A stretch of DNA of 64,000 nucleotides from Schauerella fraxinea. GTDB lineage: Bacteria > Pseudomonadota > Gammaproteobacteria > Burkholderiales > Burkholderiaceae_B. The first letter of the stretch is position 1. Each line of letters starts with the position of its first letter. The DNA is taken from contig JAVDKL010000001.1 of NCBI GenBank assembly GCA_030849965.1, positions 3,020,554 through 3,084,553 on the forward strand, given 5' to 3'. The notes under the pieces are model-generated. The model saw nothing but the letters and a program-made list of their open reading frames with translations, was not told the DNA's origin and searched no databases. Positions 7,883 to 49,285 of this stretch are shown here, piece after piece. The position numbers and the translations under genes were made by a program.

Positions 7883-8680
7883 TCAGTCGAGGGTCTTGAC
7901 CCGCTTGATCAGTTCTTTTCCAAACGCCAGGTAGGCCTGCGCCCCGCGTGAATTGCGGTCGTACACCACGCCTGGCATGCCGTGGCTGGGCGCCTCGGCC
8001 AAGCGCACATTGCGCGGCACCACCGCCTTGAATACCTTGTCGCCAAAGTGCGCTTCGAGCTGCGACGACACCTGCTGCTGCAATGTCATGCGCGGATCGA
8101 ACATGACCCGCAACAAGCCGATGATGCGCAGGTCATCGTTGATATTGCGATGCACGCGCTTGATGGTGTTGACCAGGTCGGAAAGCCCTTCCAGTGCAAA
8201 ATATTCGCACTGCATCGGAATGATCACGCCATGCGCTGCCGCCAATCCATTGAGCGTTAGCAGCGAGAGCGTCGGCGGGCAGTCGATCAACACGAAGTCG
8301 TATTCGGTTCGGATGGTATCGATGGCCATCTTCAATTGCCGCTCGCGCTCTTCCATCTGCACCAGATCCATTTCGGCGCCGGACAGCTCGCGATTGGCGG
8401 GCAGAACGTCGTACTTGCCGCTTTCGGAACGCACGCGCGTCTGGGCGATCGTGGCATCGCCGATCAGCACTTGGTACAGGTTGGACGTCAGCCCGCTTTT
8501 GTCGATGCCGCTACCCATCGTCGCGTTGCCCTGCGGATCCAGGTCGATCAGAAGCACACGCTGATTGTGAATGGCCAACGACGCTGCCAGGTTGATGGCA
8601 GTCGTCGTTTTACCAACGCCGCCTTTTTGATTGGCAATGCAAAATATACGGGCGGTCTTGTTGGGCGGTACGGCGTTCAT
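7883..8680 (-). CDS. parA: chromosome-partitioning ATPase ParA (Soj)
   Basis: A 265-residue ParA/Soj ATPase that positions the origin together with ParB. The deviant Walker A motif IANQKGGVGKTTTAINLAA is at about 13-31, Walker A' LIDLDPQGNATMGSG near 45-59 and Walker B FVLIDCPPTLSLLT near 125. The C-terminal part has VPRNVRLAEAPSHGMP at about 215. I chose the ATG at 8680 because AAGGAA lies upstream and it overlaps the rsmG stop by four bases (ATGA), indicating coupled translation; a longer reading from 8770 would run through rsmG. The order rsmG-parA-GNAT-parB is co-directional. Confidence 0.97.
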   Translation of the reverse strand: MNAVPPNKTARIFCIANQKGGVGKTTTAINLAASLAIHNQRVLLIDLDPQGNATMGSGIDKSGLTSNLYQVLIGDATIAQTRVRSESGKYDVLPANRELSGAEMDLVQMEERERQLKMAIDTIRTEYDFVLIDCPPTLSLLTLNGLAAAHGVIIPMQCEYFALEGLSDLVNTIKRVHRNINDDLRIIGLLRVMFDPRMTLQQQVSSQLEAHFGDKVFKAVVPRNVRLAEAPSHGMPGVVYDRNSRGAQAYLAFGKELIKRVKTLD

Positions 8681-9363
8681 GTGTTTCCTTGAATGCGGCG
8701 CATCGAGATGAGACAACGTTGCGCAATGAGTTCCGGCACCGTGAGCGACTCGACGTGATCGATTGCCCACACACCGGCTGCGCGCACGGACTCCATCTCC
8801 TCGTGCGGCGTCTTGCCTTTCATGGCGACGAGGGTACCACCCTGCGCCACATGCGGACCGCCCAACGCAGCGAAATCATCCAGCGACGCAAAGGCCCGCG
8901 AGATCACAACATCGCACTCGGCCGACGGGAGCGTTTCGACGCGGGCATGCTGCGCACTGAGGTTGGGCAATTGCAGTGCGCCGACCATCTGTCGCACGAA
9001 CGCGACCTTCTTCTCAACGGCATCCACGCAGCAGACTGTCCAAGCGGGGCGCATCACAGCGATAACCACGCCAGGCAAGCCACCGCCCGAACCCACGTCC
9101 ATAACGCGCGCAGCGGCCGTCTCATCGCGTCCCAGCAGGGTCGACAAAGGCGCCACTACAGCCAGACTATCGAAGAGATGCTGAATCAGCATTTGCTGCG
9201 GATCGCGGATCGCCGTGAGGTTGTAGGTGCGGTTCCACCGCACCATCTGAGACATATAGCCCAGCAGCCTGCGGCACTGATCGTCGCTGGGTGCGAGTCC
9301 CATTTGCGCGCATGCCTCACGCAGGCGTCGCTCGGCTTCGCCGCCCAGAAAAACATCTTCCAT
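8677..9363 (-). CDS. rsmG: 16S rRNA (guanine-527-N7)-methyltransferase RsmG (GidB)
   Basis: A 228-residue SAM-dependent methyltransferase that makes m7G527 in 16S rRNA. Family features are NRTYNLTAIRDPQQMLIQHLF-type sequence at about 44-64 (the classic N-LT-R motif before the Rossmann fold), the SAM site VMDVGSGGGLPGVVIAV at about 88-104, and CVDAVEKKVAFVRQM near 112. The gene starts 2 bp after the mnmG stop and ends overlapping parA by four bases, so mnmG-rsmG-parA form one transcription unit. Confidence 0.96.
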   Translation of the reverse strand: MEDVFLGGEAERRLREACAQMGLAPSDDQCRRLLGYMSQMVRWNRTYNLTAIRDPQQMLIQHLFDSLAVVAPLSTLLGRDETAAARVMDVGSGGGLPGVVIAVMRPAWTVCCVDAVEKKVAFVRQMVGALQLPNLSAQHARVETLPSAECDVVISRAFASLDDFAALGGPHVAQGGTLVAMKGKTPHEEMESVRAAGVWAIDHVESLTVPELIAQRCLISMRRIQGNT

Positions 9364-12621: not shown

Positions 12622-13088
12622 GTGCCCTCACGCAGCGAATGATGCGACCTCGCCGTGTGAACTACCAATGGGACACTTGAAGCACTCCCGCACGGACGGC
12701 TTAGCAACCATTCAGATGTGAATAGGCTAGTCGTTATTGCAATTCGCCCTCGTATAACAGAACGCATCAGCGGCTGACTCAGTTGCTGAGAGCAACGCAT
12801 CAGAGATCAATCACGACTCACCCAGCGCGTTCCAATGCTTTGAGCTTGGGCATGCTGAGCCCTGCGCTTCATCAAATCGCAGCCTGATCGCACATCGACT
12901 TAAGTTGCACCGACTAACGAACAGAGTACCGTTAGACAAATATTCCACTGTTCCGATGGCTTTTGGGCCTGTACATGCCCGGCTCGACGACTCGACGAAT
13001 AGGCATCTCAACAACCGATTATCCCCGTTCCGGTAGATCTGTCATGCCGATCCGAAACGCACGTCGAACCGCCAGCGCGGGCGCCATT

Positions 13089-17130: not shown

Positions 17131-18297
17131 ATGCTGCAATCCAAATTGCCGGACATCGGCACCACCATATTCACCACGATGAGCCGTCTGGCGCTCGAAC
17201 ACGGTGCCGTTAATCTCGGACAAGGTTTTCCAGACTTCGAGCCGGATCAGCGTTTGCGGGATCTGGTCACGCAAGCCATGCGGGAAGGTCACAACCAATA
17301 TCCGTACATGCCGGGCGTGGCGCCGTTGCGCCAGGCGATCGCCGCCAAAGTGTCCGCACTGTACGGTCATGACTACGATCCCGATACCGAGATCACTGTC
17401 ACGAGCGGCGCGACCGAAGCGTTGATGGCGACGATTCTCGCGGTCGTGCACGCCGGCGATGAGGTGGTTGTGATCGAGCCCTGCTACGACGCTTATATGC
17501 CGTCGATCAGGCTGGCAGGCGCCACACCGGTCGCTGTGCCGTTACGAGCCCCCACAATCGAAGATCCGTACTACCGTGTCGATTGGCAACGGGTGCGCAA
17601 CGCCATCACCAGCAAAACGCGTTTGCTGATGCTGAACTTCCCGCACAATCCGACGGGCGCGGTACTGACCGACAGCGACTTGGATGCGCTCGAACGCATT
17701 GTCGAAGAAACCGGCGTGCTGTTGATTTCGGATGAGGTCTACGAACACATCGTGTTCGATGGGGTCGCGCATGCCAGCCTGGCACGACGCCCGATCCTCG
17801 CCGCCAATGCGTTCATCATTTCTTCTTTCGGCAAGACTTATCACACGACCGGTTGGAAGATCGGTTACTGCTGCGCGCCGAAGGCGTTGAGCGCGGAGCT
17901 GCGCAAGGTGCACCAGTTCATGGTGTTCACGGTGTCCTCACCCATGCAAGTCGCCCTTGCGACATTCATGCAGGACCCCGCGCCCTACCTCGATCTACCG
18001 GCCTTCTACGCCGCCAAGCGCGCGCATTTGAAGGCGGGCCTTGAGCAGACCCGATTCGTACCGTTGCCGAGCCCCGGCACCTTCTTCATGCTTGCTGATT
18101 ACTCGGCGATCTCGGACCGGCCCGAAGCCGAATTCGCGCAATGGCTGACCGTGGAGCACGGGGTTACCGTGATCCCGGTCTCCGCCTTCTACAAACAACC
18201 GGATGCAGCAGGCTCCAATCATCGTCTGGTGCGTTTTTGCTTCGCCAAGCAAGACAGCACCCTCGATGCGGCCGTGGAACGCCTGAAGGCCGTTTAA
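17131..18297 (+). CDS. PLP-dependent methionine-type aminotransferase (YbdL-like)
   Basis: A 388-residue fold-type I aminotransferase of subgroup I gamma, close to YbdL/kynurenine-oxoglutarate transaminases that act on methionine and aromatic amino acids. Visible features are NLGQGFPDFEP (about 27), the YPYMPGVAPLRQAIA segment (about 55), the TSGATEALMATI loop (about 91), NFPHNPTGAVL (about 169), DEVYEHIVFDG (about 201), and the Schiff-base lysine in SSFGKTYHTTGWKIGY (about 230). The C-terminal substrate arginine lies in LVRFCFAKQD. No clear ribosome site precedes the ATG. It stands alone, facing the tct locus tail to tail. Confidence 0.9.
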   Translation: MLQSKLPDIGTTIFTTMSRLALEHGAVNLGQGFPDFEPDQRLRDLVTQAMREGHNQYPYMPGVAPLRQAIAAKVSALYGHDYDPDTEITVTSGATEALMATILAVVHAGDEVVVIEPCYDAYMPSIRLAGATPVAVPLRAPTIEDPYYRVDWQRVRNAITSKTRLLMLNFPHNPTGAVLTDSDLDALERIVEETGVLLISDEVYEHIVFDGVAHASLARRPILAANAFIISSFGKTYHTTGWKIGYCCAPKALSAELRKVHQFMVFTVSSPMQVALATFMQDPAPYLDLPAFYAAKRAHLKAGLEQTRFVPLPSPGTFFMLADYSAISDRPEAEFAQWLTVEHGVTVIPVSAFYKQPDAAGSNHRLVRFCFAKQDSTLDAAVERLKAV

Positions 18298-21657: not shown

Positions 21658-23115
21658 TCAAATTCCGATATTTTCGTTGCGCAGTGCAGCACGCCTTGGG
21701 GGCGCTAGGGAAAACACTAAGCTCACCGCCAAGCCGTGAGGTGTTCGTGGCACGAACGTCAACGCCGCGCCGTGCGCATCTGCGATCGTGCGAACGATGG
21801 CCAAACCCAGTCCGGCCCCGGTGGTATTTTTGCCGGCAGTGCCGCGGCGAAAACGTGCACCGGCCCGAGCGATATCGTTCTCGCTCATGCCAACACCGTC
21901 GTCATCTACCGTTACCGTGACGTCGCGAGTTGTACACGCGATATGCACAGTTACCGCGCCCTTGCGGGGGCTATATCTGATGGCGTTATCCACAAGGTTA
22001 ACCAGAGCTTCGCGCAGCAACCATTCCACGCCCCGGATGGATACCGCCGTATCGGGCCGATCGAGTCCGAGATCGATGGCCTTCAGGCGCGCGACGGGTA
22101 ACAACGATCGAACAACGCCGTCGCATAACTCGCACACATCGAGCATCTCGCCGGCAGTGTCCAGCATGCTGCCGATGGAGGCATCCCGGGCACGCGCCAG
22201 GGCCAGCAACTGGTTTGTCGTACGTACCGCGCGATCAAGCCCATCCTGCATGGCGATGAGCGCCTGACGCGCCTCCTCCGGGTCTTTTTCCCTCAAGGCG
22301 TAGACCACCTGCGTGCGCAACACCGACAGCGGCGTTCGCAACTGATGCGATGCATCGTCGAGGAACTGACTTTGAAGGGCTCCTTGAGCCTCGTAGCGGG
22401 CCATGTGGCGGTTTACGGCGGAAACGAGGGGCTGCACCTCCGCAGGCACTTCCGAACCGCTGACGGGGCTTAAATCGTCCGCAGACCGGTTTTCAACCTC
22501 TTGCCGTAAACGCTCCAGCGGCCTGACGGCGACGACAACGCCAAACACGATCAGCACCACACTGAACACGATGACGAAAAGGTCACGCTCTATCGAGCGA
22601 AACAGAATCGCATTGGTGAACGTCTGCCGCGCATCCAGACTCTCGGCGACCTGGACGATGACGCGCCCCCCGGCGTCGTTGTAGAGCGGCGGATTCATCA
22701 CACGCGCCAACGCGGCCACCCGTACCGGTTCGCCCTGATATACATCATCGAAAAAGACCGGCTCCCCCGAGCGCAAAGCATCCTTGGGCATGGGCAAACC
22801 GGGATTGCCGATTTCGGCGAGCGTGTCCTCAGTCGACACCCGAAAATATACGTTGCCGTTCGCGGTAAGTTCGAAAAATTCCAACAACAAATACGGCTGT
22901 TCCATCGCCAACCCGCCGCTGGCTGTGGATATGTTGTGATCGATCGATTTCAAGGCCCCAGCTAGGGAACGGTCGTAAGCCACATCGACCAAGTTGCGCA
23001 ATTGGGCTGTGGATAACCACAACGCACCAATGAGCACGGCCACCAATGCCGGCACGATCGCCCGCAGCAATTGGCGCCGCAAACTCCGCGGTGCTTTTCC
23101 GGCAATCTCAGCCAT
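21658..23115 (-). CDS. tctE: sensor histidine kinase, TctE family
   Basis: A 485-residue kinase with an N-terminal membrane helix (about 20-38), a periplasmic 2CSK_N-type sensor domain (about 39-180) and a second helix (about 187-207). A HAMP-like stretch follows, then the H-box DDASHQLRTPLSVLRTQ (phosphoaccepting His about 268), an N box LVDNAIRYSPRKG (about 385), and G boxes DDGVGMS and TGAGLGLAIVRTIADAHG (about 450). It overlaps the response regulator by 8 nt (ATGGCTGA), which fixes the start at 23115. It presumably senses a carboxylate and controls tctCBA, which follows in the same direction. Two perfect DnaA boxes lie inside this gene (21986-21994 and 23009-23017). Confidence 0.93.
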   Translation of the reverse strand: MAEIAGKAPRSLRRQLLRAIVPALVAVLIGALWLSTAQLRNLVDVAYDRSLAGALKSIDHNISTASGGLAMEQPYLLLEFFELTANGNVYFRVSTEDTLAEIGNPGLPMPKDALRSGEPVFFDDVYQGEPVRVAALARVMNPPLYNDAGGRVIVQVAESLDARQTFTNAILFRSIERDLFVIVFSVVLIVFGVVVAVRPLERLRQEVENRSADDLSPVSGSEVPAEVQPLVSAVNRHMARYEAQGALQSQFLDDASHQLRTPLSVLRTQVVYALREKDPEEARQALIAMQDGLDRAVRTTNQLLALARARDASIGSMLDTAGEMLDVCELCDGVVRSLLPVARLKAIDLGLDRPDTAVSIRGVEWLLREALVNLVDNAIRYSPRKGAVTVHIACTTRDVTVTVDDDGVGMSENDIARAGARFRRGTAGKNTTGAGLGLAIVRTIADAHGAALTFVPRTPHGLAVSLVFSLAPPRRAALRNENIGI

Positions 23116-23782
23116 CGATCGTTTCCAGGCTGTAGCCCATGCCGCGCAGCGTGACAATCTGAACGGAGGTCGCCGCCAGTTTTTTCCGCAGCCTGTGGAC
23201 AAGTACTTCAATCGCTTCGAGGTTGATATCGGAATCATCCGACACGATGCGATCGAGGATATGTTGTTTGTTCATGGGCTCGCCACTGCGCTGGATCAGT
23301 ACGCGCAACACAGCGTGTTCGCGTGGCGACAGTGCCATGGGTTGACCACTGACCGTGAATCGTTGGGCTGCCGTGTCGAAAACCAGATCGCCAAGGCTCA
23401 ACCGGGGATGCTCTTTTCCCCGACTGCGGCGTATCAAGGCCATCAAGCGTGCTTCAAGTTCCTCGACAACGAACGGTTTCGGCAAAAAGTCATCGGCGCC
23501 CTCATGCAATGTGCCGATCCTTTCCGCGAGAGAATCGCGCGCCGTAAGCACCAACACAGGTGTTCGATCGTCTCGGGCGCGCATTCGCGCCAGCAAACTA
23601 TGCCCGTCGATATCCGGTAAACCCAGATCGAGAACCACGGCGTCGAATTCTTCGACTTCGAGTCGCTTGAGCGCGAGAAAGCCGGTATCGGCCCAATCCA
23701 CAACGAAGCCCGCATGGCGGGCGAGACTGCGCGATAGCCAGCGGGCAAGTTCCGCCTCATCTTCGACTAGCAGGATGCGCAT
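23108..23782 (-). CDS. tctD: OmpR/PhoB-type response regulator, TctD family
   Basis: A 224-residue regulator. The receiver domain has the acidic pair in LLVEDEAE (residues 4-11), the phosphorylated Asp in VVLDLGLPDIDG (about 51), Thr in VLTARD (about 79) and Lys in FLPKPF (about 101). The C-terminal winged helix (about 125-220) shows the typical LSPREHAVLRVLIQRSG and NLEAIEVLVHRLRKKL. Its start lies about 40 bp from the AT-rich end of the origin-like module, so its promoter must overlap that region (23783-23880). Confidence 0.94.
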   Translation of the reverse strand: MRILLVEDEAELARWLSRSLARHAGFVVDWADTGFLALKRLEVEEFDAVVLDLGLPDIDGHSLLARMRARDDRTPVLVLTARDSLAERIGTLHEGADDFLPKPFVVEELEARLMALIRRSRGKEHPRLSLGDLVFDTAAQRFTVSGQPMALSPREHAVLRVLIQRSGEPMNKQHILDRIVSDDSDINLEAIEVLVHRLRKKLAATSVQIVTLRGMGYSLETIDG

Positions 23783-23827
23783 GGTTTTGCGTCCGGTTTG
23801 GCGGGACGGAACATCATTGTCTCTTCC

Positions 23828-24062
23828 TTTCTTTTATATATATAAACCTAGTAGTGGATGATAAGGCCTGTGGATAACTACCTTAACGTTGAATAAGCGA
23901 GCGTGTTCAACACGTTAGCGCGCTTTTGCGCTGTGGATCAGGCCTGTTTAAATTTGAGCGCCAAGAGGGACAAGTTTGCTGCCAGACGGCAAAACCGGGG
24001 GTTGTTGATAAGCGATCCACACGCTGTGCACACCAGCGCTACTTAGGTGTTATCCACAGGCC
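23828..24062. other. origin-like module A (AT-rich tract plus DnaA boxes)
   Basis: This is a chromosomal-origin candidate. An AT-rich tract with alternating TATATATATA (23834-23846) is followed by a TAG/ATG-type triplet stretch (AGTAGTGGATGAT, 23851-23863) that resembles DnaA-trios. A perfect DnaA box TGTGGATAA lies at 23870-23878. Weaker boxes are at 23933-23941 (TGTGGATCA), 24003-24011 (TGTTGATAA) and near 24013-24021 (CGATCCACA). A perfect TTATCCACA closes the module at 24050-24058. Order and spacing recur in module B 1,061 bp to the right. Unwinding and initiation here are inferred. Confidence 0.7.
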
Positions 24063-24888
24063 TCTTGCCGAGCCTCACTCCGGCGGGCATGGGCTCAAAT
24101 CACCCTTCCTACTCCGCGCAGCAAGCCGTTTAAACGCGTTTTCATAGGGCGACGCGCGAAAAAGATGATTGGACGTGTGAGCGCACCGAGGGCGTTTTGG
24201 TTGATTGTGTGGCGTGTCCTGGCCGTGAAGAAAACTGATCAAAGGGTGGTCAGAGGCGTTTGCGAGCGCGGTGGCGTCATCGCGGGAGCCTGGAAAAGCT
24301 GCGAACCCGCGTAGGCCCCTTAGATCGCCTCCGATCCAAAGCGCGAGCCGCTCAGGGATGAGAAAACGCATCGCTCACCCCAATCCCTGAAAATTGCGCA
24401 GTTTTTGAGCAAAGTGAGCACCTTTGGATTAGCGACGTCAACCTGCGGCGGGAAAGGAGCGCTTTTTCGCAAGCAAACGCGGCTGTGGACATCTTTTTTG
24501 CGGCGATCAGCCGGGCGCGGTAGTCAGATTACGGGTACCACGCCCCCTGAATGGCACGCCAGCAATCGTCAACCTGAAACCCAGCAATGACCCGTGTGAT
24601 GGACACCCCGGGTTCGCCGTGCACTACCCGCTTGATTTGTCTCGCAGGTCGAGGCGCGTCGTGCTGATTGCGGTACTCAGTTGCGCAGTGTTTGAGCAGA
24701 AATCAAAAAAAACTTTTTGCCGATATCGATTTCGGAATGGTTTTCCAGTTTCGACACTGAGACGCAGAGGATCCCACGATGCCGTTAGGCGAGCTGGATT
24801 GCATTTCGTCTCTCTCACTTCTGCATCTTCATCTTGGGAAGGTTCACTTCACCGTCGTCGACGCTCACTTGTGTCGTTCTTCTTTATT
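24063..24888. other. spacer between the two origin-like modules
   Basis: About 825 bp without a credible gene. The longest frame (minus 24075-24371, 98 codons) has no family features. It holds an 18-bp near-repeat, TTGCGCAGTTTTTGAGCA at 24395-24412 and TTGCGCAGTGTTTGAGCA at 24681-24698 (one mismatch), and an A-rich run near 24703-24716. No perfect DnaA box was seen in it. Confidence 0.55.
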
Positions 24889-25123
24889 CTTTCTCTTCTA
24901 TATATAAGACTGGTAATGACTAATAAGGCCTGTGGATAACTACCTTAACTTGAAATTTTCATTGTCAATCAATGTCTTGGACGCAATTTTCGCTGTGGAG
25001 CAGCGGTCTGTGTTCATGGTGACCAAGTTGAACAAGTTTTGTGTTTTGCTGCCGCATGACCGCTTGTTCGTCATCGCTCCACATGCTGTGCACACCACTC
25101 CCACTTAGACGTTATCCACAGGC
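24889..25123. other. origin-like module B (diverged copy of module A)
   Basis: A second copy of the module: pyrimidine-rich lead-in and TATATATAA tract (24889-24907), then a 27-bp block identical to module A (24923-24949) that contains the perfect box TGTGGATAA at 24931-24939. A degenerate box follows at 24994-25002 (TGTGGAGCA), then the shared CTGTGCACACCA-type segment near 25086-25097 and the closing perfect box TTATCCACA at 25112-25120. First-to-last box distance is 189 bp here and 188 bp in module A. The triplet stretch is less regular than in A. Confidence 0.7.
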
Positions 25124-26277
25124 GAAATCTGCCTTGGTTCATCACTCGTGCAGGCTGAACTCATGGAGAACAAGAGCGATGTGGTTCATCCGCACCCCAA
25201 ATTTCCTCCTTGATCCCTCGAAAAAGGGACCGTGTGATCGATGTAATACGGAAGGCGTTGAAGCGCAGGCCTAATCAGCGGGATCTGGACGCGTGGTAGC
25301 AGCACTGCAAAGGCAGAGGCAGAGGCCGCAATGTGTGCTCAAGAACTGCGCACAACTTCGAGGTTGTCTTTTGAACATCTGTGCTTGGACGACGGTTTTC
25401 TGCAAATGCCGAGTGGGGCAGAGATATGGAAGAGCCAGCTACCTGGTGCGGAAAAAAAACGGGGTCCCGAAATAATTACTTTGAAAACTTGCTCATTTGT
25501 TGAGCAGTTCGCGCGGCTTTGTATTGCACACGTGACGGTCTGGCGCTCATCTGGGATTGGGGGTCACGCAGACCTGTGCGTCGGGCTTGGGGAAAGCTGC
25601 CCGCGTGGCGATGTAACGAGGCGACGTGACGAAAGCGAGTCCATTTGTGGACAGGATGCGGTGGCCCAGAACCCATATGTTCAGGTTGTCCCCAGCGCTT
25701 CCCGTTCTTAGCAATGTGGATAACGCGACGGCGGTTGCCATATTCTGTGGATAACTTCATTCGCCACAAAATGACCTTCATAAACATCAACTTGTTGGAG
25801 CATGTGGGATCCGCTAGCGGCACGTATCTCGATAGCCGTTGATGTCCAATCAGCGCCCAAAGCGCGTTATCCCAGGTTATTCGGCGCTTTTCCAAGCGTT
25901 ATGCACAAGCTTGTCCACCGAAGGTTTTCCAGGCGCTTCGTGAGTACAAGGTTCATGTGTACAGGCTTCATGAGTCAGGCTGCCATGACAGGCTTTATTA
26001 GCAGGCTTCATGAGCAGGCTTCATGGTTAACCGGCATAGCGAAAATCAGAGATGTGTTGAATTCGATCGTCGGACTCAGGAGATCTCGTGACGTTCTCCG
26101 CGTTAGCCTGAAAGCCCAACGCCAGCCTGACGATTCCACGCGATCGACAGCATTACTGTCTCAATTCCGAAGTGAGGTTATCCACAGCGGCACACGCGTT
26201 GAGCGCTTCGACGTGGACGGAGGGGCCTGGCTGGGTGTAGGGTCGGTGCATCGAATTCTTTTTTTGCGAAGTGCGAA
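25124..26277. other. gene-free segment with further DnaA boxes
   Basis: No convincing gene. Perfect DnaA boxes lie at 25716-25724 and 25747-25755 (same orientation, 31 bp apart) and at 26178-26186 (opposite orientation, about 90 bp before the next start codon). The 13-bp array at 25929-26026 is listed separately. A frame on the plus strand at 25802-26281 (159 codons) reads through the array and has no family signature, so I do not call it. Confidence 0.6.
25929..26026. repeat. 13-bp tandem (iteron-like) repeat array
   Basis: The unit is CAGGCTTCATGAG. Four units run head to tail with an exact 13-bp period (25975-25987, 25988-26000, 26001-26013, 26014-26026). Another perfect unit lies one base upstream at 25961-25973, and two more degenerate units precede it (25946-25958 and 25929-25943). 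The array lies between DnaA boxes of the origin-like region. Confidence 0.85.
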
Positions 26278-27492
26278 ATGACTGACACGCCGTTCGATCG
26301 AACACACGCTGTTGCCGGCTACGGCATGCGTACCTTGGCGGTGCATGCGGGGCAGCGTCCGGATCCGGCAACAGGTGCGGTTGCGCCGCCGATCGCGGCC
26401 GCCTCCGCATTCGCCTATGACGATTTCGATGCCGGTGCCCGCCGTTTCTCGGGCGAGTCGCCGGGATTTATATACAGTCGTTTTGCCAATCCCACGGTGC
26501 AGATATTCGAAGCAAAGATGGCGGCGCTGGAAAACGGCGAAGCGGCTGTGGCTTTCGCGAGCGGCATGGCGGCCATCAGCGCGACATTACTGGGATTGTT
26601 ATCCACCGACGATGAGGTCATTTACGTCGGCACGCTTTACGGCGGCACCGATAGTTTGATGCGAACGTTGTTGCCGCGTTTGGGGATACGCACAATCGCC
26701 GTGCCTGATGTGCAAAGTGTGCACGCGCAGATCACGTCGAAGTCCAAACTGATCTTCGCCGAGACGCCTGCCAATCCCACGATGGCAATTCTTGATGTGG
26801 CTGAGATTGCATCGCTTGCACGCAGTGCCGGCATGATCAGTGTGGTGGACAACACCTTTTCTACGCCTTGTCTGACGCAGCCTCTTGGGCTTGGCATCGA
26901 TGTTGTAGTGCACTCGGCCACCAAATACATCGGCGGGCATGGCGATGCAACGGGCGGGGTCGTGATAGCGGCGGCACGTTTGATCGATCCGATTCGCACG
27001 GCAGGCTTGAAGCATATCGGGGGATGTTTGAGCCCGCACGAGGCGGTTATGTTGATTCGGGGGTTGAAAACCTTGCCACTGCGCGTCTCTGCGTCTTGCG
27101 AGAACGCCCAATATCTTGCGGAGCGCCTGCAGGGTCACGACAAGATCGAACAGGTGTATTACCCAGGCTTGCCCACGCACCCGGGTTACGCGGTGGCACG
27201 GCGGCAAATGCGACAGCCTGGCGGAATGCTGTCGGTGTCGCTTGTTGGGGGCCGACCGGCAGCGCGTGCATTTCTGGATGGATTGTCGTTGATTACCCAG
27301 GCGGTATCGCTTGGCGACGTCGATTCGTTGGCGTGTCACCCGGCGTCGACGACGCACAGTGCAATGGCCGAAGCGGTGCGCCTGCAAAGCGGTGTGACCG
27401 AGGGTCTTGTACGCATCAGTGTGGGTATTGAGGATGCCGAGGATCTTTGGCGCGATATTGAGCACGCACTGGCTGGCTGTCGAAATGAATGA
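26278..27492 (+). CDS. trans-sulfuration family PLP enzyme (methionine gamma-lyase / cystathionine gamma-synthase type)
   Basis: A 404-residue Cys/Met-metabolism PLP enzyme. Features are the YSRFANPTVQIFEAKMAALE region (about 65-84), the PLP phosphate motif FASGMAAISATLL (about 93), SLYGGT-like TLYGGTDSL (about 120), VVDNTFSTPCLTQPL (about 190), the Schiff-base lysine in HSATKYIGGHGD (about 215) and the C-terminal RISVGIEDAEDL. Members make or break C-S bonds of homocysteine, cystathionine or methionine. GIRT-type and GGHGD variants are found in gamma-lyases and O-acetylhomoserine sulfhydrylases, so the exact reaction is open. The ATG directly follows the origin-like region; a DnaA box lies 92 bp upstream. 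Confidence 0.85.
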   Translation: MTDTPFDRTHAVAGYGMRTLAVHAGQRPDPATGAVAPPIAAASAFAYDDFDAGARRFSGESPGFIYSRFANPTVQIFEAKMAALENGEAAVAFASGMAAISATLLGLLSTDDEVIYVGTLYGGTDSLMRTLLPRLGIRTIAVPDVQSVHAQITSKSKLIFAETPANPTMAILDVAEIASLARSAGMISVVDNTFSTPCLTQPLGLGIDVVVHSATKYIGGHGDATGGVVIAAARLIDPIRTAGLKHIGGCLSPHEAVMLIRGLKTLPLRVSASCENAQYLAERLQGHDKIEQVYYPGLPTHPGYAVARRQMRQPGGMLSVSLVGGRPAARAFLDGLSLITQAVSLGDVDSLACHPASTTHSAMAEAVRLQSGVTEGLVRISVGIEDAEDLWRDIEHALAGCRNE

Positions 27493-27579
27493 CGTCAAAA
27501 GAACTGATATTCATCGCATTCACGATCTGTATAAGTGATGCCAAAAGAACTAATGCCCAACGCACGCACGATCTGCCGC
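27488..27579. repeat. two-copy degenerate repeat, 46-bp period
   Basis: The segment CAAAAGAACT...CACGATCTG occurs at 27496 and again at 27542, giving two imperfect copies of about 46 bp just after the gamma-lyase-family gene. The rest of the gap to the PQQ dehydrogenase (27580-27764) shows no promoter boxes I would trust. Confidence 0.6.
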
Positions 27580-27764
27580 AATCATTTGTCGCTGCGGCAC
27601 AGTCCTGAGATATGCACGTAGATCACCATTTCAGCGAGAGGCATATTCAGACGCGATTAATTCTCCAGGAGTAGACTTCGCTCCGTAAGTTTCAGGTAAG
27701 AATTTGAGGACGCCCTCGAGTGGCGATTTTCTTGCCGGTTTACGTGATCTTTTGGAGAAATGAA

Positions 27765-30221
27765 ATGAGTTCGAATCCCAGCCCGGGACGCGGCGCGCGA
27801 ATATTCGCAGCCGTTGTGGGCATCGTCGCCATATTGCTTGGCGCGTATATGAGTTATCGCGGTCTGCAATTGCTGCAGCTTGGCGGGTCTTTCTACTACA
27901 TGCCGGTTGGCCTGCTGATTCTGGTCGCGGGGGTTTTTCTGGTGCGGGCCGATATCCGCGGCGTCTGGCTTTATGCCTTGGCCAGTGTGATCACGGTGGT
28001 TTGGGCGATCTGGGAGGCTGGACTTCATTTCTGGCCTTTGGCCGCACGGTTGGGTTTTATCGGGGTGATTGCGTTGCTGGCGGCACTGGTTGCGCCAGCC
28101 TTGCGCGGTGCGCGTGGGCGTCGCCCAGTCAAAGTGGCGTCGTGGTCTATCGCCGGTGTGTTGACAGTGGCGTTGGTGGGCGCGTTTGCGTACGCGTTTC
28201 AACCGATCTGGCTGGTCAAGCCCGGTGCGGCGCCTGCCGTGGCGGCGGGCTACAAGGCCGGTACCGATAATGCCAATTGGACGGGCTATGGCCGCACACC
28301 GGACGGAACGCAATTTGCCCCGTTCGATGCCATCACGCCCGATAACGTGTCGAAGCTGCAGGTGGCTTGGACGTTCCGCACGGGAGACTTTGCGTACGGT
28401 GGCGCCGAGAATCAGAATACGCCGCTGCAGATCGGCAACGTGCTTTATCCGTGCACGCCGTCCAACCAGGTCTTTGCGTTGGATGCCGATACCGGCAAGC
28501 AGCTTTGGAAGTTCGATCCGCAGGTCAATGCCGGCTTTACGCCGACGTGGCAACGTTGTCGTTCGGTAGCGTATTACGAGTTGCCTGCAGCCAGCCTCAC
28601 GTCGGCCGCGCCGGTGAGTTCGGACAATACCCCTGCTCCCGCAACCGCCACCGCAGTGGCGGGCGGCGATGCCGCTTGCCGTCGTCGCATTTATCTCACC
28701 ACTGGCGATATGCGCTTGATCGCGCTGGATGCGCAAACGGGCAAGCCTTGCGCGGGCTTCGGCCAGAATGGCGAGGTGTATCTGGCGACGGGCATGGGCA
28801 AAGTGGTGCCGGGGTTTTATAACCCCACGTCCGGACCGCTGATCGCAGGCGATCGATTGATCGTGGGCGGCTGGGTGATGGATAACCAGTCCACTGACGA
28901 ACCGTCGGGTGTGGTGCGCGCCTTCGATGCGGTCACGGGTGAGTTGTCGTGGGCGTGGGATATTGGCCGACCGGGTGTGACCACGGCGCCTGCGCAAGAT
29001 GAACATTACACGCGTGGCACGCCGAATATGTGGGCGGTGCCAACGTACGACGCCAATCTGGGACTGGTTTACTTGCCGATGGGTAACGGCACGCCGGATA
29101 TGTATGGCGCACATCGCACCCCTGCGACGGACCGTGTGGGTGCGGCCATCGTTGCCTTGGACGCGCGAACGGGTGCCGAGCGTTGGGTATTCCAAACCAC
29201 ACATCACGACGTGTGGGATTACGACCTGCCTTCCAAACCGGTGTTGTACGACGTGCCTGGTGAGAACGGCGAGCGCGTACCGGCGTTGATTCAAACCACC
29301 AAGCGTGGCGAAATCTTCATGCTCGATCGCCGCACGGGTAAGCCTATTGCGGAAGTGGCCGAAAAAGCGGTGCCGCAGGATGGCTTGCGTGGTGAACGCT
29401 TGTCGCCGACCCAGCCCTACTCGGTAGGCATGCCGCAAATTCGTCAGGACGTGCTGACCGAAAAAGCGATGTGGGGCATTACGCCGATCGATCAACTGGC
29501 TTGCCGTATTGCCTTCAAGGAGTTGAAGTACGACGGCGATTTCACACCGCCCAGCACCGAGTGGTATATCCCGCATCCGTCGCCGTTCGGCACGATGAAT
29601 TGGGGCGGCTTTTCGATCGACAAGCAGCATGACTACATGATCGTCAACGACATGCGGATCATGATGAAGGCCAAGTTGATCCCTCGCGACGAGGTCAATC
29701 GTGCGATGGCGGCATCGGGCAAGACGGGGCCGAGCGTGGCCGGCGTCGTGCCGATGGACAACACGCCTTATGGCGCGGTGCGCAGCATGGTGACGTCGAT
29801 GTTGGGCGTGCCTTGCACCGAGCCGCCGTTTGGCGCGATGACCGCGATCGACTTGAAAACGCGCCAGATTGCCTGGCAGCGTTCGCTGGGTACGGTTGAA
29901 CAGTTGGGCCCGCTTGGGATCAAGACAGGTCTGCCGATTCCGATCGGTATGCCATCGCTGGGTGGCCCTGTGGCCACCGCGTCGGGCTTGATCTTCATGA
30001 CCGGTACGGCCGACTACTACCTGCGTGCCATGGACGTGGCAACGGGGCGTGAAGTATGGAAGTCGCCGTTGCCGGTAGGCGCCCAGTCGACTCCGCTGGT
30101 GTATGTGTCGCCGCAGAGTGGCAAGCAGTATGTGGTGGTGACGGCCGGCGGTGGGCGCACGGCGCCCGATCGTGGTGACTACATCGTGGCCTATGCCCTG
30201 CCCGATGGCGTGTCGAAGTAA
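27765..30221 (+). CDS. membrane-bound PQQ-dependent dehydrogenase (glucose/quinate/shikimate family)
   Basis: An 818-residue quinoprotein. The first about 150 residues hold five membrane helices, followed by a large periplasmic eight-bladed propeller. Landmarks: NWTGYGRTPDGTQFAP at about 171, TPLQIGNVLYPCTPSNQVFALD near 222 (given in parts), WKFDPQVNAGFTPTWQRCR near 249, PGVTTAPAQDEHYTRGTPNMW at about 405 (in parts), FQTTHHDVWDYDLPSKPVL near 475, and GGPVATASGLIFMTGTADYY near 730. It oxidises a sugar or cyclic acid in the periplasm and passes electrons to ubiquinone. Glucose or quinate cannot be separated here. The ATG at 27765 is chosen because GGAG lies about ten bases upstream; an earlier start at 27720 is not supported. 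No pqq biosynthesis genes are in the window. Confidence 0.9.
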   Translation: MSSNPSPGRGARIFAAVVGIVAILLGAYMSYRGLQLLQLGGSFYYMPVGLLILVAGVFLVRADIRGVWLYALASVITVVWAIWEAGLHFWPLAARLGFIGVIALLAALVAPALRGARGRRPVKVASWSIAGVLTVALVGAFAYAFQPIWLVKPGAAPAVAAGYKAGTDNANWTGYGRTPDGTQFAPFDAITPDNVSKLQVAWTFRTGDFAYGGAENQNTPLQIGNVLYPCTPSNQVFALDADTGKQLWKFDPQVNAGFTPTWQRCRSVAYYELPAASLTSAAPVSSDNTPAPATATAVAGGDAACRRRIYLTTGDMRLIALDAQTGKPCAGFGQNGEVYLATGMGKVVPGFYNPTSGPLIAGDRLIVGGWVMDNQSTDEPSGVVRAFDAVTGELSWAWDIGRPGVTTAPAQDEHYTRGTPNMWAVPTYDANLGLVYLPMGNGTPDMYGAHRTPATDRVGAAIVALDARTGAERWVFQTTHHDVWDYDLPSKPVLYDVPGENGERVPALIQTTKRGEIFMLDRRTGKPIAEVAEKAVPQDGLRGERLSPTQPYSVGMPQIRQDVLTEKAMWGITPIDQLACRIAFKELKYDGDFTPPSTEWYIPHPSPFGTMNWGGFSIDKQHDYMIVNDMRIMMKAKLIPRDEVNRAMAASGKTGPSVAGVVPMDNTPYGAVRSMVTSMLGVPCTEPPFGAMTAIDLKTRQIAWQRSLGTVEQLGPLGIKTGLPIPIGMPSLGGPVATASGLIFMTGTADYYLRAMDVATGREVWKSPLPVGAQSTPLVYVSPQSGKQYVVVTAGGGRTAPDRGDYIVAYALPDGVSK

Positions 30222-46520: not shown

Positions 46521-48173
46521 ATGAAAGATTTCTGGCAGACCTGCGTCAGTCGCCTTGAGCAGGATTACCCCCCCCAACAGATCAGTGCGTGGATTCGTCC
46601 ACTGGTTCCGCTCGACTTCGATGAGTCGTCGGCGGTGCTGCGTGTGGCTGCGCCCAACCGCTTCAAGTTGGATTGGGTGCGCAAGAATTTTTCACATCAG
46701 ATAGAGACGATCGCGGCCGAATGGTTCCAGCGTCCGGTGCAAGTATTGTTCGAATTGCCCACGCAGTCGGGTGCACCGCGCATCGCGCAGCCTTCGCGCG
46801 CGCCTACGCCTACTGGCGCGGCGCACGCGATGGCGGCACCCACGCAGCATGCTCAGGCAGCCCCTGCGCAGCACTATGCGCCCCCGAGCGGTCCGGCCAA
46901 CGGCATGAATAGCCCCGGAACCGGACCCGCTTTCGGGCAGCAGGCGCCGCTCCCGCCGGGCTATAACCCGAGCCTCGATACGCTCCCGCCCGCCTCGCTG
47001 CCGTCCGCTGCGCCGCCTTATTCCGGCACGCCCATGCACTCCGGCGCCTCGTCACCGGTTGCGCCTTCGGCGCCCGTGCATTCGGGCGCGTCCGCGCCGG
47101 GCATCTCGGCGGCCCAGGCGCAAGCCGATGCGGCCAATATCGTCTACGAACGCTCGCGTTTGAACACCGACCTGACGTTCGATAATTTCGTCACGGGTAA
47201 AGCCAACCAGCTGGCGCGTGCGGCGGCCCTGCAGGTCGCCGAAAACCCCGGCATTTCGTACAACCCGCTGTTTTTGTACGGCGGTGTGGGTCTGGGTAAG
47301 ACGCACTTGATTCACGCCATCGGCAACGCCATGGTCGCGGCCGGTACCGGTGTGCGCGTGCGCTATGTGCATGCCGACCAATACGTGTCCGATGTGGTCA
47401 AGGCCTACCAGCGCAAGGCGTTCGACGAATTCAAGCGCTATTACCACTCCCTCGATCTCTTGCTGATCGACGATATTCAGTTTTTCTCGGGCAAGAACCG
47501 CACGCAGGAAGAGTTCTTCTACGCGTTTGAAGCGATGGTGGCGCAGCGCAAGCAGATCATCATCACCAGCGACACGTATCCGAAGGAACTCGCCGGTATC
47601 GATAGCCGGTTGATCTCGCGTTTCGACTCGGGTCTCACGGTCGCGATCGAGCCGCCCGAACTCGAGATGCGCGTGGCCATTTTGCTGCGCAAGGCCGAGT
47701 CCGAGGGCGTACCGATGCCCGAGGAAGTGGCGTTCTTCATTGCCAAGCATTTGCGCAGCAACGTGCGCGAGCTCGAAGGCGCATTGCGCAAGGTGTTGGC
47801 GTATGCGCGGTTCCACGGCCGCGATGTGCTCACCGTCGATGTGTGCAAGGACGCGCTCAAGGATCTGCTGTCGGTATCGAACGGGCAGATCACGGTAGAG
47901 AATATCCAGAAAACGGTGGCCGATTTCTACAAAATCAAGGTCGCCGACATGTATTCGAAACGCCGGCCCGCCAATATTGCGTTGCCGCGCCAGGTGGCGA
48001 TGTACCTGGCCAAGGAGTTGACCCAAAAAAGCCTTCCGGAAATCGGCGACCTCTTCGGAGGCCGTGACCATACGACGGTCTTGCATGCCGTTCGCAAGAT
48101 TTCCGACGCCCGCGCCAAACAGGCGGAGCTCAACCATACCCTGCACGTGTTGGAACAAACTCTAAAAGGATGA
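46521..48173 (+). CDS. dnaA: chromosomal replication initiator DnaA
   Basis: A 550-residue initiator ATPase. Domain I is residues 1-85 ([21 protein letters not shown]). The linker, about 88-205, is long and rich in Pro, Ala and Ser. AAA+ domain III has Walker [14 protein letters not shown] (about 253), Walker [14 protein letters not shown] (about 314) and sensor motifs. Domain IV has the DnaA-box helix [15 protein letters not shown] (about 512). It is longer than the roughly 460-residue E. coli protein because of the linker. It overlaps the dnaN leader (stop TGA inside ATGAACATG). Confidence 0.97.
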
Positions 48174-48175
48174 AC

Positions 48176-49285
48176 ATGCAACTCGTACAAACACCGCGCG
48201 ATGCGTTGCTCAAACCGTTGTCGATCGTGGCGGGCATCGTCGAAAGACGCCATACCCTCCCGATCCTCGCGAACATCCTCATGCGCAAAGAGGGCAATCG
48301 TGTGTCGTTCATCGCGACCGACCTCGAAGTGCAGATCACCACGCATGCCGATTTCGGCGTCGGTCAGGACAACGAGTCCATCACCGTCGCGGCGCGCAAG
48401 TTGCTCGATATCCTCAAGGCGTTGCCCGGCACGGGCGACGTACGGTTGGGGCTGGCGAGCAACAAGCTGTCCGTGCAAACCGCCAAGAGCCGGTTCAACC
48501 TGCAGACGCTGGCCGCGACCGAGTTTCCGACCGTCGCACAGCCCGAGCAATGGGATGTCTCGCTGACGATGCCGCAAAAGACGCTGCGTCATGTGCTCAA
48601 CATGGTGCACTTCGCGATGGCGCAACAAGACATCCGCTATTACCTGAACGGTATGCTGCTGGTGTTCGAACCCGGTCACGTGCGTGCCGTGGCGACTGAC
48701 GGTCACCGTCTGGCGCACTGCGCCACCGTGGCCGATGGCATCGAAGCGCGCCACGAAGTGATCGTGCCGCGCAAGACCGTGCTCGAAATGCAGCGGCTGT
48801 TGAGCGATACCGAAGAGCCGGTGTCGATCGACGTGGCGCCGGGCCAGATCCGGTTCCGCTTCAGCGATATCGAGTTGGTGTCCAAGCTCGTGGAAGGTAA
48901 GTTCCCCGACTTCACGCGCGTCATTCCCACCAACTACACGCGTCATTTCGGCGTGAGCCGCGAAGCGTTGCAAGGCAGTCTGCAGCGCGCCGCCATTCTC
49001 ACCACCGATAAGTTCAAGGGTGTGCGTCTGCAGTTGGGCGAACATCTGATGAAGATCTCGTCTTCCAACGCCGAGCAGGAAGAGGCGCAGGAAGAAATCG
49101 ATATCGATTACAGCTTCGAGCCGCTGGACGTTGGGTTCAACGTCAGCTACTTGCTCGATGTCCTGGGTAATGTGAAAACCGACCAGATTACGTGGTCGGT
49201 GATGCCGGACGCCAACGCCTCCGCGCTCATCACGCTCCCCGAAGACGACCAGTTCAAATACGTCGTCATGCCGATGCGCATCTGA
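48176..49285 (+). CDS. dnaN: DNA polymerase III beta sliding clamp
   Basis: A 369-residue clamp that tethers Pol III. It opens MQLVQTPRDALLKPLSIVAG, has the hydrophobic-pocket segment VRAVATDGHRLAHC (about 170) and ends YVVMPMRI, the standard C-terminus. I chose the ATG at 48176 because AAAGGA lies six bases before it. An ATG at 48170 inside the dnaA stop would add two residues. Confidence 0.97.
   Translation: MQLVQTPRDALLKPLSIVAGIVERRHTLPILANILMRKEGNRVSFIATDLEVQITTHADFGVGQDNESITVAARKLLDILKALPGTGDVRLGLASNKLSVQTAKSRFNLQTLAATEFPTVAQPEQWDVSLTMPQKTLRHVLNMVHFAMAQQDIRYYLNGMLLVFEPGHVRAVATDGHRLAHCATVADGIEARHEVIVPRKTVLEMQRLLSDTEEPVSIDVAPGQIRFRFSDIELVSKLVEGKFPDFTRVIPTNYTRHFGVSREALQGSLQRAAILTTDKFKGVRLQLGEHLMKISSSNAEQEEAQEEIDIDYSFEPLDVGFNVSYLLDVLGNVKTDQITWSVMPDANASALITLPEDDQFKYVVMPMRI

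Follow-up and report, generated by a model that had tools for sequence, protein, structure and literature searches.

The window analysed here is a 64,000-nucleotide stretch of Schauerella fraxinea (positions 3,020,554 to 3,084,553 of a 3.42-Mb contig in a genome of 5.37 Mb), and it contains two modules, A and B, that lie in tandem with the same order of parts and an offset of 1,062 bp. Each module opens with an AT-rich tract containing TATATATA, followed by a perfect DnaA box on the minus strand and an IHF-type site at +36 from that box, and continues with a degenerate box, TGTGCACA and a closing perfect box on the plus strand. The IHF consensus is WATCAANNNNTTR, and the sites in A and B that resemble it are called putative IHF-type sites. 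The features, in window coordinates, are:

17131 to 18297, plus strand: methionine aminotransferase gene (NCBIfam PRK09082 over its cut-off; synteny).
23108 to 23782, minus strand: gene for a TctD-like response regulator (NCBIfam TctD at 246 bits, cut-off 337; Pfam Response_reg and Trans_reg_C above cut-off), its start facing module A.
23824 to 23868, no strand: AT-rich, presumed unwinding side of module A, with TATATATATAAA, from the sequence.
23869 to 24058, plus strand: module A, outer perfect DnaA boxes included (box scan; 144 bits with the module model R1), with an R1-like box at 23869 to 23877 (minus) and an R4-like box at 24050 to 24058 (plus).
23905 to 23917, plus strand: putative IHF-type site of module A, GTTCAACACGTTA, at +36 from the first box.
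24024 to 24035, plus strand: CTGTGCACACCA element of module A, a mostly conserved block of alignment A1.
24062 to 24885, no strand: inter-module spacer, poorly conserved (50% identity to the sister species).
24886 to 24930, no strand: AT-rich, presumed unwinding side of module B, with TATATATAA, from the sequence.
24931 to 25120, plus strand: module B, outer perfect DnaA boxes included (box scan; 150 bits with the module model), with boxes at 24931 to 24939 (minus) and 25112 to 25120 (plus).
24967 to 24979, plus strand: putative IHF-type site of module B, AATCAATGTCTTG, a full match to the consensus at +36.
25086 to 25097, plus strand: CTGTGCACACCA element of module B, from the sequence.
25715 to 25907: box cluster C, with perfect boxes at 25715 and 25746 (minus) and a one-mismatch box at 25899 (plus).
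46521 to 48173, plus strand: dnaA (Pfam Bac_DnaA, Bac_DnaA_C and DnaA_N), about 22 kb from the modules.
48170 to 49285: dnaN (DNA_pol3_beta domains), directly after dnaA.

In A and in B alike, the outer perfect boxes span 190 bp from first to last and stand 181 bp apart start to start, and a 27-bp block is exactly identical between the copies (23861 to 23887 and 24923 to 24949). The same order of parts and the identical 27-bp block had already been described in a sequence-only reading of this DNA, and both are present as it stated; its distances need small corrections, from 1,061 to 1,062 bp between the copies and from 188 and 189 bp to 190 bp across the boxes of either copy. Over 238 ungapped positions the modules agree at 154, a likeness for which chance can be rejected, since 19,802 pairs of 238-mers drawn at random from the window gave a mean of 62 matches (sd 7.5) and a maximum of 94. 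Duplication during assembly was likewise rejected as the source of the pair: the copies differ at more than one-third of positions, and in a different assembly, that of a congeneric species, the pair recurs at an offset of 1,072 bp, which together make an artefact unlikely. The 65 bp preceding the first box have an AT content of 0.63 in A and 0.66 in B (window mean 0.40), and the opposite sides have 0.34 and 0.48, respectively. The IHF-type site of module A carries 2 mismatches to the consensus, with its letters unchanged in the sister species. Three NAN triplets that resemble a DnaA-trio, a loose motif, lie 12 nt from the box in both modules.

The layout follows that of E. coli oriC (NC_000913.3, 3925744 to 3925975), where an AT-rich side, an R1 box, an IHF site (putative in A and B) and an inverted R4 box are found, and where R1 and R4 are 180 bp apart start to start in strain K-12, compared with 181 in A and B. 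The E. coli IHF site, which we take to lie at +27, has two mismatches from the consensus, and the putative site in A and B is at +36. With the module model, E. coli oriC reaches 12.9 bits over the whole module and 15.2 bits in a partial match on the other strand, and a score of only 12.9 bits means that the likeness is one of layout. A and B are not adjacent to dnaA, an adjacency that is common for oriC though not universal, and in this they resemble E. coli, whose oriC is placed away from dnaA according to PMC8287927. Unlike in E. coli, the module is present twice in tandem.

The turning points of base composition fall at the same place. Within a 400-kb stretch, the cumulative GC-skew minimum lies at window position 23711, the keto-curve minimum at 23714 and the purine-curve minimum at 25219, so that the turning points bracket the A–B pair, and 20 further 20-kb samples of contig C1 have positive skew at 0 to 0.4 Mb, negative skew at 0.6 to 2.8 Mb and positive skew again at 3.3 to 3.4 Mb. 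GC skew is unable to separate units 1 kb apart. Perfect DnaA boxes (TTATCCACA) number 32 genome-wide, 16 of them inside the 64-kb window and two in each module. The module model is a sequence-only model of 220 positions built on alignment A1 (11 modules from 8 genomes, in which the row of G015 and two rows of G025 are misaligned by about 10 bp towards their ends); its training set took in A and B themselves, and its E-values are rough. Run on its own genome at E ≤ 0.01, it returned three matches, namely A, B and a weak third one 0.6 kb farther on, all within 2.1 kb. We consider it almost certain that the A–B locus is the chromosomal oriC. The sequence-only reading had named GC skew and close relatives as checks, and both agree with it, the minimum being located at this locus and close relatives carrying the module at the matching place; its proposal of a tandem duplication of an origin core in which the DnaA parts were kept is supported by the skew and the relatives.

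Conservation was measured against the second species of the genus (G001). Identity is 87% for A, 50% for the spacer, 79% for B and 41% downstream, and the shuffled spacer gave 25 to 41% in 10 shuffles. Of the 45 bp on the AT-rich side, A shares all 45 with G001 and B shares 42, and the pair is present in both genomes of the genus examined. Both A and B have very probably been kept by selection, and since B retains its AT-rich side, what selection seems to hold is an unwinding unit and not DnaA boxes alone.

Beyond the genus, at least one match to the module model at E ≤ 0.01 was found in 225 of 268 family genomes. Same-strand pairs less than 5 kb apart, with both matches at E ≤ 2e-4, occur in 52 of the 268 and in 18 of 43 genera, a count in which weak second units may be missed because the filters of the family-wide search were stricter. 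The pair had not been recognised from elsewhere by the sequence-only reading, and these numbers make clear that it is no one-off. Match places were examined for 78 genomes (77 with at least two matches and one with a single match), and the other 26 comprise one flanking pair, nine distant second modules, five with matches on separate contigs that were left out of the pair count (G112, G225, G234, G258 and G282) and 11 with no clear second module. The second module of the nine is 50 to 250 kb off, in opposite orientation in eight. The flanking pair (G031) has its oppositely oriented modules on either side of the aminotransferase gene (L188, 6997 to 7215, minus, and 8570 to 8774, plus). A strong module is present in 46 of 80 named loci, which were found by tctD and extend at most 10 kb to each side, so that a locus without a match does not mean a genome without a module; of the 43 with Achromobacter or Bordetella in their title, 42 carry a single module and the remaining one, A. 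aestuarii, carries two. A sample of 200 genomes drawn across the order gave 26 with a match at E ≤ 0.001, five of them from this family, and the best match outside the family scored 49 bits. No publication describing this pair was found among the matches listed in the literature on duplicated or second oriC regions or on the origins of this family, a search that covered few subscription papers and no preprints.

Proximal and distal units were compared across the family. AT-rich sides are alike, with a mean AT in the 65 bp before the first box of 0.668 in distal units (n = 20, range 0.58 to 0.75) and 0.651 in proximal units (n = 21), and the first box has at most one mismatch in all 41 of these modules. 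The closing box is perfect in 11 of 20 distal and 17 of 21 proximal units, and the spacing of the best boxes falls outside 178 to 182 in 6 of 20 and 3 of 21, respectively; distal copies are weaker on average. Among 40 modules from 20 paired genomes, a set that contains A and B but not G031, 27 have the IHF core CAANNNNTTR no more than 51 bp from the first box, compared with 2.65% of random 51-mers from the window, and 3 of 4 single modules have it as well. Its position among the 27 is +35 or +36 in 24 and +12 or +19 in three. Runs of three trio-like triplets are present in 31 of the 40 modules and in 47% of shuffles, an excess that proves little, since the modules share ancestry and the motif is loosely defined. 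DnaA-trios were accordingly rejected as proof of unwinding, although their frequency exceeds that of the shuffles. Base composition around other pairs is mixed: in one paired genome (G157) skew over the 200 kb examined is lowest some 92 kb away from the pair and turns only weakly at the pair itself, and in another (G009) the GC minimum is 4.5 kb and the keto minimum about 30 kb from it.

Our preferred interpretation, to which we give a probability of about 0.58, is that the origin is a tandem of two complete oriC units of the E. coli type, each of them competent. The odds that A and B can both initiate seem somewhat better than even, and each unit can probably unwind, because the AT-rich side is preserved in both along with the boxes. 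In each unit, DnaA would bind the high-affinity boxes at either end and weaker sites in the interval, and an IHF-type protein would introduce a bend about 36 bp from the first box. A DnaA filament would then open the AT-rich tract beside the first box, where the helicase would be loaded. Initiation at either unit would make this a two-unit locus with a single bidirectional start in each cycle. Against two competent units, relatives with a single unit show that one suffices. Also on this side of the balance are the weaker average state of distal copies, the two mismatches in the putative IHF-type site of A and the skew curves of G157 and G009.

If only one unit fires, most likely A, then the other may be an accessory DnaA-binding site that titrates DnaA or supports looping in a bipartite-like arrangement, an alternative that we regard as unlikely but well short of negligible. 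The lower conservation of B (79%, compared with 87% for A) speaks for this alternative and against two competent units, as do, for the alternative, the closing boxes that are more often imperfect in distal units, the occurrence here of box clusters without an AT-rich side (cluster C and the box halo described below) and the existence of bipartite origins in B. subtilis and H. pylori (PMC4403523). A pure DnaA-binding site, however, would need no AT-rich side, and yet B keeps 42 of 45 positions of its own, while the distal AT-rich sides, at 0.58 to 0.75, are well above the 0.45 of cluster C. That B keeps this side whereas cluster C has none is the main reason to see in B more than a DnaA sink. 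In the bipartite origins of B. subtilis and H. pylori, dnaA separates two sub-regions that are unlike each other, and unwinding takes place in one of these. Such origins share with the A–B locus two DnaA-box regions close together, but here the units are alike, both have an AT-rich side and nothing but a poorly conserved spacer separates them; if a bipartite origin is taken to mean unlike sub-regions, a gene between them and one unwinding site, then A and B do not form one.

That B is a decaying remnant of the tandem duplication with no present role seems improbable, even though many relatives manage with one unit, because B retains 79% identity between the two species, compared with 41 to 50% in its flanks, its main parts are intact and both genomes of the genus examined have the pair. 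More improbable still is that the locus serves the tct genes as a promoter region under DnaA control, or that its box clusters are due to chance, for although module A stands directly before tctD and dnaA is 22 kb off, the GC-skew minimum falls at the locus, the layout is E. coli-like and the module adjoins the methionine aminotransferase gene without an intervening tct cluster in 19 of 20 family regions.

The methionine aminotransferase gene is present in all 20 of those regions and less than 1 kb from a module in 19, the exception being G009, where a tct cluster lies between the two. The genus of the window likewise has a tct cluster in this position, and so do Achromobacter, Bordetella and a single Pigmentiphaga locus (the five other named loci with a module that were examined are L051, L052, L081, L090 and L100, all selected by tctD); tctD is thus a neighbour of the module in only part of the family. 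The conserved neighbour of oriC in the family is the methionine aminotransferase gene, and tctD is incidental. The sequence-only reading had singled out a pair beside tctD; the adjacency stands, whereas a special link to tctD does not. A role of the modules as a tctD promoter element was rejected, as in 19 of the 20 regions a module adjoins the aminotransferase gene with no tct cluster between. On the other side of the pair, at 26278 to 30221, are genes for a methionine gamma-lyase-like protein and a PQQ dehydrogenase, neither of which has a match in the 20 kb of sister-species sequence in L050.

The history of the duplication was approached with a tree of 50 modules, 40 from paired genomes and G031, two from G001 and eight single modules picked from the 46 loci; the modules of L185 and weak or palindromic matches were left out. 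The tree is weak, with 25 of 47 inner branches open and the bootstrap unsettled. Proximal and distal units do not separate in it (14 changes each, shuffled means 16.1 and 15.7), and one ancient duplication common to all genera is therefore not supported. The A modules of this genus pair up across its two species, as do the B modules (100/99 in either case), and all four units form one group at 93/93, just under the mark for a firm branch, a grouping that favours a duplication on the lineage of the genus itself or later homogenisation. In other genera, pairs group partly within a genome and partly across genomes, with low support. Repeated duplication, or units kept alike by exchange, would fit these patterns better. 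It is possible, at somewhat less than even odds, that twin and independently competent origins are common in this family, with tandem units repeatedly duplicated or homogenised by exchange and both under selection, in which case at least 18 of the 43 genera would have two usable starts about 0.4 to 5 kb apart.

Four putative double origins were listed by Gao in 2015, in Acidaminococcus, Dehalobacter, Ralstonia pickettii 12D and Ochrobactrum (PMC4403523). The case in Acidaminococcus is a duplicated dnaA region, and those in Dehalobacter, R. pickettii 12D and Ochrobactrum are predictions beside different genes, 150 to 882 kb apart (PMC4403523). They resemble the locus described here in having two predicted oriC regions per chromosome, but in none of the four does one conserved module recur in close tandem, as it does in A and B. 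Pseudomonas aeruginosa, according to PMC4403523, has two autonomously replicating origins, only one of them essential in typical laboratory growth, and by that description it is similar in having two candidate origins on one chromosome.

What distinguishes the present locus is a twin oriC, likely an origin built twice about 1 kb apart with both copies conserved. Since both copies are conserved and the twin layout occurs in many related genera, this amounts to a natural test of two-origin use in a bacterium, with a complete and conserved pair of units on one side and one-unit relatives as natural controls on the other. It bears on whether two starts can coexist, how a single initiation per cycle is kept and why the second unit is retained.

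The pair lies within a halo of perfect DnaA boxes from 16240 to 46475. Outside the modules it holds 12 boxes in 30 kb, several of them inside genes, where 0.16 would be expected from the genome rate, with the limits of the halo drawn after the boxes had been seen; modules included, it accounts for 16 of the 32 perfect boxes in the genome. All 7 of the non-module boxes that can be aligned to G001 are unchanged and 5 are not alignable, the chance for one box to remain unchanged at 87% identity being about 0.29. A complete genome of the presumed Achromobacter group (G065) has 14 of its 25 perfect boxes within 40 kb around the module, and one of the presumed Bordetella group (G036) has 6 of 26 within about 20 kb. 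The positions of perfect boxes revealed no halo in G157, G006 and G009. Such a halo may serve DnaA titration around the origin.

Cluster C coincides with the weak third match to the module model (25740 to 25929, 22 bits) and has no AT-rich side (AT 0.45 before 25746). G001 has the same 153-bp spacing between boxes, and there both boxes are perfect (L050 reversed, 12672 to 12833). As a third origin unit it was rejected, given the weak match, the missing AT-rich side and the 41% identity.

Second modules at other places were noted in genera g66 and g61. In two genomes of genus g66 a second module lies exactly between dnaA and dnaN (G227, C1:1012330-1012514, L197; G232, C1:1607-1791, L208), and over the 200 kb examined in G227 skew is lowest about 0.9 kb away from the other module, the one on the aminotransferase side. 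In genus g61 (G103, G104 and G108) two modules stand 67 to 88 kb apart in opposite orientation, and within the stretch examined in G104 the skew minimum is by the aminotransferase-side module, with a local turn at the other.
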